This document shows positions 17,317 through 20,540 of a stretch of 33,749 nt of DNA, piece after piece. The stretch comes from Atopobacter phocae ATCC BAA-285 (GTDB lineage: Bacteria > Bacillota > Bacilli > Lactobacillales > Aerococcaceae). The translations under genes were made by a program, and so were the position numbers. Each line of letters starts with the position of its first letter. Within the stretch, counting starts at the first letter, position 1. The notes beneath the pieces are model-generated. The model ran no database searches and was not told the origin of the DNA. It saw only the letters and a program-made list of their open reading frames with translations. The stretch covers positions 1 through 33,749 of the forward strand of contig NZ_JAGN01000015.1 in assembly GCF_000526675.1 (NCBI RefSeq). Reading direction: 5' to 3'.

Positions 17317-18168
17317 ATGAAATTTAGACGAAGTGAACGCTTGATTGATATGACCGATTATTTAAAAAGACACCCGCATCAATTAACGACATTGAGTTTC
17401 TTTACGAAACGTTACGATGCAGCGAAGTCATCAGTAAGTGAAGATATTGTTATTTTAAAACGCACATTTCGGCATCAAGGTATTGGCTTAATTGAAACAG
17501 TACCTGGTGCAACAGGTGGTGTTCGGTTTATTCCGATGTTGAGTAGCCAGAAAGCTAATGAGATAGGAGACGTATTAGTAGAGCGAATTAATTCACCGAA
17601 ACGTATTTTGACAGGTGGATTTATGTATTTAACGGATTTACTAGTGCATCCATTAACGTTAGACTTTATCGGACGTATTATCGCTTCGAAGTTTGCTTTA
17701 AAAGATATTAATGCGGTAATGACTGTTGCGACAAAAGGAGTGCCATTAGCGCAATCCGTTGCTCGTTATTTAAATGTTCCCTTCGTTATTGCAAGACGAG
17801 AAGCAAAGGTGACAGAAGGAGCAACTATATCAATTAATTATCCATCTTATCGGACAAATCGAATTGAAAAAATGTTAGTATCGAAAAAAAGTCTGAATGA
17901 AGGCGATCGTGTATTAATTGTAGATGACTTCTCGAATGGTGGAGGTACCATTGAAGGTATGACGATGTTGGCAGATGAATTTGGTGCAACCATTGTCGGC
18001 AGTGTGGTTCTCTGTGAATTAAATGCTCAAGAGAAAAAGATGAGGCCATTTGAATCAATTGCGAAAATCACAAAATTAGACGAAATGAATAAGGAAATCC
18101 AAGTCGAAAAAGGTAGTTTTTTCAATGATTTAAGTATGCTGCTAGATCATGTGAAAGAAGAGGGGTAA
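17317..18168 (+). CDS. purR: Purine operon regulator PurR
   Basis: A 283-aa PurR of the Gram-positive type (unrelated to the LacI-type PurR). The N-terminal winged-helix domain (~1-75, FRRSERLIDMTDYL) binds PurBoxes. The C-terminal type I phosphoribosyltransferase fold carries the PRPP motif VLIVDDFSNGGGT (199-211) and senses PRPP rather than catalysing transfer. Length equals the B. subtilis protein. In B. subtilis the order is purR-yabJ-spoVG-glmU-prs; here glmU follows after two bases and yabJ and spoVG are absent. Confidence 0.93.
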   Translation: MKFRRSERLIDMTDYLKRHPHQLTTLSFFTKRYDAAKSSVSEDIVILKRTFRHQGIGLIETVPGATGGVRFIPMLSSQKANEIGDVLVERINSPKRILTGGFMYLTDLLVHPLTLDFIGRIIASKFALKDINAVMTVATKGVPLAQSVARYLNVPFVIARREAKVTEGATISINYPSYRTNRIEKMLVSKKSLNEGDRVLIVDDFSNGGGTIEGMTMLADEFGATIVGSVVLCELNAQEKKMRPFESIAKITKLDEMNKEIQVEKGSFFNDLSMLLDHVKEEG

Positions 18169-18170
18169 TT

Positions 18171-19499
18171 GTGAAGAAAAAACAACATGCAATTATTTTA
18201 GCGAATCATAAAGAAGATCAAATGAAATCAGAACTTTCTGTGTATCAACACCTAATTTGTGGACGCCCAATGATAGATTATGCATTAGAAACAGTAGAAC
18301 GTGTAGGCATGAATCAAGTGATTGTTGCTACAGATTTAGCAAATCAAGAATGGGCGCGTGACTTAAACGAAAGTGCATCTCATGTGTCGGTAATGGATGT
18401 AACGAATGCTCAAACAATGAATGATTCTTTTTCTGATCAAGAAGGAATAACGTTAATTCTTCAAGGAAATATGCCGATGATTCAATCAACAACGCTAAGG
18501 GAATTGGTGAAATTACATCAACAATCAGATGCAAAAGCAACTGTTTTAATGGATCAACCTGTATCAGTAGGGAATCATCTGCAAGTTGTATCACCTATAC
18601 AAAGCAATGAACAACGCGCGAATCAAATAGCAGAACAAACTGCAACAGAAAGACAGACAGTTGTATATTGCTTAGACAATGATATATGGATGAATAAAGC
18701 ATCAATGTTTCGTGATATAAACGATGTAGAAGCGCTTGTTCAATCATTGGATACAAATAATGTACAGGAAATTCAAACGACGCATCCTTTTGAAGGGACA
18801 AAGATTAATACACGAATTGATTTAGCACATGTTACTCAATTAATACAAAAACAAATTAACACAGAACATATGCTGAATGGTGTTACGATGATTCATCCTG
18901 AAACTGCAGCGATTGAGTGGGGAGTAACTATTGGAACAGACACGGTAATTGAAAGCCATGTGACGTTAAAAGGTAAAACATCAATTGGGACGAACTGTGT
19001 AATCACACAAGGCAGTCGAATCGAAGATAGTCAAATTGGCGATCGTGTAATCATTAAGCAATCAGTTGTTGAAGAATCACTAGTGGAATCAGATAGTGAT
19101 ATGGGCCCCTTTGCACATTTAAGACCAAATAGTCGAATTGGAACACATGTTCATTTGGGGAATTTTGTTGAAATTAAGAATTCATCCATTGGTGAAGGTA
19201 CAAAAGTAGGACATCTGACTTACGTGGGTGACGCTCAATTGGGACGTTTCATCAATATCGGTAGTGGAACTAATTTCGTTAATTATAATGGAAAAACAAA
19301 AGCACAAACGACAATTGGTGACCATGCATTTATAGGTTGTGATACATCTCTTGTAGCTCCAGTTAATGTGGGCAAGGGGTCATTTACAGCAGCAGGATCC
19401 GTTATTACGGAGGATGTTCCTGATAATAGTTTGGCAATTGCCCGAAATCGACAAATTAATAAAATAAATTACGCAAATGGGATGCCACACAATCAATAA
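18171..19499 (+). CDS. glmU: GlmU-like protein: degenerate uridyltransferase domain, intact acetyltransferase domain
   Basis: A 442-aa homologue of the bifunctional enzyme that makes UDP-GlcNAc. The C-terminal left-handed beta-helix (~240-430) keeps the acetyltransferase site: R318 (AHLRP), K336 (VEIKN), H348 and Y351 (GHLTYVGD), N362 and NYNGK, so it should convert GlcN-1-P to GlcNAc-1-P. The N-terminal Rossmann domain is homologous and in frame (GRPMIDYALE) but has lost the signature GxGTRM..PKVLH: the residues here are NHKEDQM..SVYQH, with Gln17 for the essential Arg and Val24 for the essential Lys. The Mg-binding Asp is Asn100 (GNMPM), and the QLGTGHA and GYGRI motifs are missing. No frameshift or stop is seen. 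The start is GTG with an AGAGGGG site. Confidence 0.88.
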   Translation: MKKKQHAIILANHKEDQMKSELSVYQHLICGRPMIDYALETVERVGMNQVIVATDLANQEWARDLNESASHVSVMDVTNAQTMNDSFSDQEGITLILQGNMPMIQSTTLRELVKLHQQSDAKATVLMDQPVSVGNHLQVVSPIQSNEQRANQIAEQTATERQTVVYCLDNDIWMNKASMFRDINDVEALVQSLDTNNVQEIQTTHPFEGTKINTRIDLAHVTQLIQKQINTEHMLNGVTMIHPETAAIEWGVTIGTDTVIESHVTLKGKTSIGTNCVITQGSRIEDSQIGDRVIIKQSVVEESLVESDSDMGPFAHLRPNSRIGTHVHLGNFVEIKNSSIGEGTKVGHLTYVGDAQLGRFINIGSGTNFVNYNGKTKAQTTIGDHAFIGCDTSLVAPVNVGKGSFTAAGSVITEDVPDNSLAIARNRQINKINYANGMPHNQ

Positions 19500-19550: not shown

Positions 19551-20540
19551 ATGGCACAACACAAAAAAGGCTCTCAACTGAAATTGTTTGCATTGAAGTC
19601 GAACCAACCGTTAGCGAAACGTATGGCACAAGAGTTAGGGATGGAATTAGGAAACATTTCAACTGAGCAATTTAGTGATGGCGAGATTAAAATTAATATT
19701 GAAGAAAGTATTCGTGGGGATCATGTTTATGTGATTCAATCAACATCTAATCCCGTAAATGATAACTTAATGGAGTTATTAATTATGATTGATGCGCTAA
19801 AACGAGCGTCTGCGAAAACAATTAATGTGGTCATGCCATATTATGGATATGCACGACAAGATCGTAAAGCGCAGTCTCGTGAACCAATTACAGCTAAATT
19901 AGTTGCGAATATGATTACAATGGCAGGTGCAGATCGCGTATTAACGTTAGACTTGCATGCAGCACAAATTCAAGGGTTCTTTGATATTCCGGTTGATCAT
20001 TTGCTAGGCGCAAGCTTACTAGCTAATTATTTCTTAGATCATGATATTTTAAAATCATGTAAAGAAGATATCGTTGTAGTATCACCTGACCATGGTGGTG
20101 TAACAAGAGCGCGTAAATTGGCAGAATTTTTAAAAGCACCAATTGCAATTATTGATAAACGTCGTCCAAAAGCAAATGTGGCTGAAGTGATGAGCATTAT
20201 CGGTGATGTACGTGGCAAACATTGTATTATTATTGATGATATGATTGATACAGCAGGAACAATTACACTGGCAGCTAAAGCACTTAAAGAGCAAGGCGCA
20301 AAAGCTGTATATGCTTGTTGTACCCATGCCGTTCTTTCTGGACCAGCTATCGAACGGATTGAATCTTCTGAAATTTCAGAATTGATTGTAACGGATTCGA
20401 TTAATGTACCGAAAGAAAAACAAATCGACAAAATGAAACAAGTAAGTGTGGCGCAATTAATGGCTGAAGCAATTCGTCGCATTCATGAGAACCGTTCAGT
20501 AAGCCCATTATTTTTAGAAAAATTTGAAATCATTGATTAA
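19551..20540 (+). CDS. prs: Ribose-phosphate pyrophosphokinase (PRPP synthetase)
   Basis: A 329-aa class I PRPP synthetase, converting ribose-5-phosphate and ATP to PRPP for purine, pyrimidine, NAD, His and Trp synthesis. Visible motifs are [37 protein letters not shown] (flexible loop and ATP site), [18 protein letters not shown] and the PRPP-binding [12 protein letters not shown] at about 225-237. GGAGG precedes ATG. It is last in purR-glmU-prs, joining purine control, PRPP supply and amino-sugar activation, as in other Firmicutes. Confidence 0.96.

Follow-up and report, generated by a model that had tools for sequence, protein, structure and literature searches.

The uridyltransferase site of GlmU is generally essential, and a bacterium whose GlmU seems to have lost this site raises the question of how its UDP-GlcNAc is formed. 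Such a protein is encoded by the glmU gene of Atopobacter phocae ATCC BAA-285, located in a 33,749-nucleotide stretch of DNA (the whole of the sequence analyzed, hereafter the window) that belongs to a draft genome of 82 contigs rated 97.5% complete. The gene starts with a GTG codon, 2 bases past the stop codon of purR (Table 1). As proposed in the initial annotation, it occupies its normal place before prs: the order purR-glmU-prs was read in the window and in a second genome of the same genus (G020, hereafter the sister), and both neighbors passed their NCBIfam cut-offs. This location, together with the single copy found, identifies the gene as the glmU ortholog. When the protein was compared with NCBIfam, the GlmU equivalogs were the top models and both were scored below cut-off (TIGR01173, 342.3 vs. 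366.85; NF010934, 390.3 vs. 450), the sister GlmU reaching 588.8 and 702.8, respectively. The window protein resembles bifunctional GlmU in gene place, length, two-domain layout, predicted fold, and C-domain catalytic residues, but lacks all four uridyltransferase motifs tested and falls below the curated cut-offs.

Table 1. Coordinates and brief descriptions of the features discussed (window positions unless a contig is given)
Feature	Position	Strand	Description
purR	17317..18168	+	Upstream neighbor of glmU; TIGR01743, 316.9 vs. cut-off 258.7
glmU	18171..19499	+	442 aa; predicted acetyltransferase-only GlmU
GlmU N-terminal domain	18171..18827	+	Approximately residues 1-219; degenerate uridyltransferase
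GlmU residues 131-160	18561..18650	+	Aligns with the relatives' YGR region and the Glu after it
GlmU C-terminal domain	18828..19496	+	Left-handed beta-helix acetyltransferase; catalytic residues kept
prs	19551..20540	+	Downstream neighbor of glmU; TIGR01251, 424.7 vs. cut-off 113
C9 nucleotidyltransferase	G000:C9:40061-40984		Stand-alone, 308 aa, 3pnn family

The two halves of the window GlmU

One GlmU was taken from each of the 76 genomes searched in the taxonomic family (hereafter the family), and the window's own protein was left out, giving 75 proteins for comparison. Four motif patterns (L/MAAGxGTRM[KR]SxxxK, GD[TG]P, QLGT[GA]HA, and YG) occurred together in 75/75 of these proteins, and the window GlmU has 0/4. 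Only 22 of the 66 near-invariant N-domain columns (at least 97% conserved among the 75 proteins) are kept by the window GlmU; relative to the family, the changes include G13H, G15E, R17Q, K24V, and D100N, and the QLGTGHA, YG, and QGEYYL motifs are gone. The absence of the GTRM/PKVLH-type signature and of the QLGTGHA and YG motifs, as described in the initial annotation, was thus reproduced against a family in which every member retains them. In a second alignment of 109 relatives (29 from the family and 80 from named genomes), the columns that we take to be R18, K25, and D105 of E. coli GlmU contain R, K, and D in 107, 107, and 108 proteins, respectively, and Q17, V24, and N100 in the window GlmU, in agreement with the replacements previously noted at these three positions. 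Similarly, K25, Q76, and D105 of Haemophilus influenzae GlmU, termed absolutely required in PMC10128056, align with Val, a gap, and Asn.

The N-domain of the window GlmU is 23% identical to that of the sister and the C-domain 59%, compared with averages of 58.7% and 54.5%, respectively, between the sister GlmU and 74 others. The top Pfam match of the N-domain is a cytidylyltransferase model (27.3 vs. cut-off 22.6). Ten of the 44 lost near-invariant columns are gaps (the Gln76 column, QGEYYL, and three Val columns), with gap positions that depend on the alignment. The initial annotation had attributed the change to substitution rather than truncation or frameshift; its exclusion of a frameshift held, whereas substitution is not the whole of the change, and, as far as can be judged from the alignment, short in-frame deletions accompany the substitutions.

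The C-domain presents the opposite picture. It keeps 46 of 50 near-invariant columns relative to the same 75 proteins, including R318, K336, H348, Y351, N362, N371, and K377, all of which are invariant in 75/75 family GlmUs; the first five had already been reported as retained. These acetyltransferase residues, together with the left-handed beta helix of the predicted model, mark it as an acetyltransferase domain. Taken with the condition of the N-domain, this argues that the window GlmU is very probably an acetyltransferase only. Where the C-domain usually has GCGTxFVNYDGK, the window protein has GSGTNFVNYNGK (window:19260-19295, + strand), and two of the four changed near-invariant columns are C365 to Ser and D373 to Asn.

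Occurrence of the loss and state of the degenerate domain

The sister's N-domain was used as a query against 395 genomes, an even sample from a larger set for the order, with one genome per species and two species of the genus covered. All 395 genomes were matched, the window genome most weakly (E 1.6e-14); the next-weakest match was E 3.7e-46 (G271, 83% complete) and the rest, read by eye, were 3.4e-64 or better, making the window GlmU a lone extreme outlier in this sample. A clade-wide motif loss, which the initial annotation had raised for checking, was rejected, as the sister GlmU is canonical and no other of the 395 genomes comes close. In trees of 26 of the 76 family GlmU sequences, the end branch of the window N-domain measured 10 as displayed and 5.9 in the midpoint-rooted Newick, compared with a median of 0.33, although its composition was flagged as unlike the alignment and its placement is unsure. 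The C-domain branch was 1.03 against a median of 0.36, and another protein reached 1.34. So far, within the genomes compared, the loss of the uridyltransferase site appears to be specific to the window lineage.

When the N-terminal region was compared in six frames with the sister's domain, the annotated frame gave E 6.9e-18 and two others E 0.33 and 0.9. Since the sister's N-domain is matched by the annotated frame alone, a frameshift or hidden frame does not explain the loss and was rejected. The codon use of the N half (0.25) falls within the range of twelve window genes (0.15-0.32). In addition, 34 of 43 hydrophobic core columns are kept (base rate 0.43), a number reached by 0 of 2000 shuffles. 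The AlphaFold model of the window GlmU has a mean pLDDT of 88.7 and a folded core, with residues 131-160 poorly predicted (block means 48-51). The model alignment comprised 57 of 80 prepared sequences, namely the protein itself and 56 canonical relatives, and the modeled N-domain fold may lean partly on the latter. Its best solved match, tied with others, is Streptococcus pneumoniae GlmU 1g95 (Z 39.5, rmsd 2.5, 412 aligned). With its open frame, ordinary codon use, and retained hydrophobic core, the N-domain looks like a dead scaffold domain; the new structural role suggested for it earlier is supported only by the apparent preservation of the fold core.

UDP-GlcNAc supply and the nucleotidyltransferases of the genome

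A search of the window genome (97.5% complete, 82 contigs) turned up no second GlmU, and this candidate was set aside; one full-length GlmU per genome was seen in 76/76 family genomes. GlmM is present (604.6 bits vs. cut-off 447.55), as are two MurA proteins (518.7 and 499.9 vs. 392.7), so that UDP-GlcNAc and peptidoglycan precursors are presumably still made in this organism. The two MurA copies, both above the murA cut-off, lie at L194 and L195 (G000:C52 and G000:C24, respectively). The initial annotation had proposed that the protein makes GlcNAc-1-P only and that uridylation takes place elsewhere. This fits the lack of a second GlmU, the presence of GlmM and MurA, and the occurrence of two plausible replacements, each of which is a candidate for the missing enzyme.

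A scan of the window genome with PF00483 and PF12804 gave seven nucleotidyltransferase-type genes: GlgC, a GlgD-like ORF that comes after GlgC, RmlA, GalU, an IspD-like gene, the window GlmU, and a gene on contig 9 (the C9 gene). RmlA, GalU, and GlgC score above the cut-offs of NCBIfam equivalog models (for GalU, TIGR01099, 373.4 vs. 326.8; for RmlA, TIGR01207, 493.8 vs. 360.65), and some narrower models were not passed by GalU and RmlA. The IspD-like gene (L116) adjoins an ORF that we take to be LicD-like and was set aside as a candidate, even though it lies slightly under its own NCBIfam cut-off (177.7 vs. 181.3) and its assignment, too, is not firm. A search with PF01704 (the eukaryotic UDPGP type) gave no match in the window genome, and the control genomes were equally silent.

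The C9 protein matches PF00483 (36.9 vs. cut-off 21.2) and no NCBIfam model above cut-off. Its sole close PDB relative is 3pnn (E 3e-82), a Porphyromonas gingivalis protein described as 'conserved domain protein / glycosyltransferase', which it also matches in structure (Z 37.1, rmsd 2.5, 296 aligned), and it keeps 42/42 columns that are invariant in 15 homologs. By sequence, fold, and retained catalytic motifs, it is a clear member of the 3pnn family, whose profile lies closer to that of GalU than to that of GlmU. At a threshold of E 1e-20 or better, and with its own genome included in each count, homologs occur in 7/76 family genomes, 9/395 sampled genomes of the order, and 8/398 sampled genomes of the phylum; none was found in the sister.

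In 6/6 other family genomes with a homolog, the gene directly after it encodes an N-acetylhexosamine 1-kinase (NahK). The best PDB match of this kinase is N-acetylhexosamine 1-kinase 4wh1 (E 9.1e-96; another NahK structure is 4ocj); in Pfam it is recognized as a phosphotransferase only, and it has no NCBIfam match at E 1e-20. When 12 selected genomes were searched in full, the kinase turned up only in the six cassette-bearing family genomes, and not in the window genome, the sister, G036, G038, G288, or G378. G036 and G038, which share a genus with two carriers, showed neither nucleotidyltransferase nor kinase. Within the flanking sequence covered, the kinase accompanies 8/15 other C9 homologs, including 2/9 outside the family (G667 and G751); the G558 homolog ends at a contig edge, and G288 and G378 were searched whole with no kinase match. 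In the window genome, where the C9 gene stands without a kinase partner, its flanks are a 284-aa ORF on the opposite strand and an ABC-ATPase gene, and a tree of 16 nucleotidyltransferases does not resolve where this genome's copy stands relative to the NahK-linked ones. The 284-aa ORF, upstream of the C9 gene (L129:4868-5722, - strand), has no Pfam match at E 0.001.

Because a kinase of the NahK type makes HexNAc-1-P, this linkage suggests that HexNAc-1-P is the substrate of the nucleotidyltransferase beside it, and the two-gene cassette looks like a HexNAc salvage pair. Cassettes of this kind were seen in genomes of two other genera (L126:1501-3537, L181:8634-10710, L179:4838-6828, and L180:4481-6477). 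Among the literature matches listed, as far as their available text extends, neither a substrate for the 3pnn family nor a description of a nucleotidyltransferase paired with NahK was found.

Explanations for the probable separation of the uridylation step

The reading that we favor, with a probability of roughly 0.5, combines an acetyltransferase-only GlmU with uridylation by the C9 enzyme. In this reading, the ortholog in its normal place would now work only as a glucosamine-1-phosphate acetyltransferase, its N-terminal uridyltransferase site having decayed and the domain being retained as a folded scaffold. GlcNAc-1-P would come from GlmM and the GlmU C-domain, and a separate enzyme would convert it to UDP-GlcNAc. 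The likeliest such enzyme would be the stand-alone 3pnn-family nucleotidyltransferase of contig 9, whose homologs elsewhere in the family are paired with N-acetylhexosamine 1-kinase in what resembles a GlcNAc/GalNAc salvage cassette; no such kinase turned up in the window genome, which may have freed the nucleotidyltransferase for the main pathway. In the eukaryotic-type pathway, acetylation (GNA1) and uridylation (UAP1) are separate, and the proposed arrangement would work alike, with two steps on two proteins. It is tentatively suggested, at somewhat less than even odds, that a salvage-type HexNAc-1-P nucleotidyltransferase of the 3pnn family, without its kinase, displaced the GlmU uridyltransferase half, now a catalytically dead scaffold, which would mean that an essential fused enzyme has been split in nature and that the 3pnn proteins are a new family of enzymes forming UDP-GlcNAc. 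Against a takeover by the C9 enzyme, the six cassette-bearing family genomes all keep canonical GlmU motifs, and therefore a C9-type gene alone does not drive the loss. The chance that the one degenerate lineage would also carry a C9 gene is about 9 in 395, a coincidence noticed after the fact. Further points against it are the looser kinase linkage outside the family (2/9), the lack of a resolved position for this genome's copy in the nucleotidyltransferase tree, the GalU-like profile of the 3pnn family, the absence of an NCBIfam match for the kinase, the draft state of the genome, and the presence of GlmR, which could perform the step.

GlmR (YvcK) ranks next to the C9 enzyme among the candidates, and it is a different gene. 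According to PMC10128056, purified GlmR of Listeria, Staphylococcus aureus, and Bacillus subtilis converts GlcNAc-1-P and UTP to UDP-GlcNAc, the same product, and GlmU would remain essential for acetylation if uridylation were covered by GlmR. It could thus be that GlmU lost uridylation and GlmR, normally an accessory GlcNAc-1-P uridyltransferase, became the main enzyme. The window genome carries one GlmR (PF01933, 340.5 vs. 30; TIGR01826, 363.5 vs. 196) that is 75% identical to the sister's, and the family match together with its Asp-Asp and Asn site residues supports the assignment. The DD pair stands at positions 40-41; the Asn of SILPN is kept and is taken by us, from its motif, to be the published N198, and the gene sits between ORFs that presumably are rapZ and whiA. 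However, GlmR was present in 6/6 genomes searched and GlmU is canonical in the other five; therefore the presence of GlmR, which is not new to the window lineage, does not explain a lone loss, and, as far as compared, the GlmR of this genome does not look altered. GlmR would soften the loss of the uridyltransferase and may be sufficient alone, but as the main enzyme it is regarded as rather unlikely.

The remaining explanations carry much less weight. It is improbable that the assembly has missed a second, intact glmU and that the window gene is a specialized or decaying copy: the 82 contigs and the completeness of 97.5% leave some room for it, but the window glmU occupies the ancestral location, its C-domain is intact and has a branch of ordinary length, and each of the 76 family genomes has one full-length GlmU. 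Production of UDP-GlcNAc by a promiscuous GalU, RmlA, or IspD-like enzyme appears quite improbable. Some RmlA enzymes are promiscuous, all three genes are in the window genome, and the IspD-like one falls just below curated cut-offs, but GalU and RmlA pass TIGR01099 and TIGR01207 and nothing marks either as changed. It is very improbable that the N-domain has kept transferase activity with a different chemistry or substrate. Its Rossmann-like core (34/43 hydrophobic columns kept), open frame, and above-cut-off cytidylyltransferase match would be compatible with this, but the domain has lost the Arg and Lys of the phosphate loop as well as the metal Asp, its stretch on the sugar side is shorter and modeled with low confidence, and no replacement motif was recognized. 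Finally, although the assembly is a draft, a sequencing or assembly error is extremely improbable, considering that the changes extend over about 200 codons in an open frame whose codon use is like that of its neighbors and that no other frame matches.

Returning to the C9 reading and its acetyltransferase-only GlmU, a natural lineage without the GlmU uridyltransferase site would show that the two fused activities are separable in evolution. The capacity of GlmR in vivo becomes testable in a natural case, and the 3pnn family gains a testable substrate through the NahK linkage. Small molecules have been directed at this uridyltransferase site (PMC10128056; PMC9105790); a lineage lacking the site would imply that its inhibitors could be bypassed and points to a possible replacement. 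Within the available text of the literature matches listed, no description of a GlmU with a lost uridyltransferase site was found, and one match (PMC11247837) was discarded as its passages concern unrelated genes. In a genome from the phylum sample (G507, L202:1483-3017, - strand), a distant 3pnn-family homolog was noticed by eye beside an overlapping ORF that resembles a left-handed beta-helix acyltransferase, and the two are perhaps a split GlmU-like pair.
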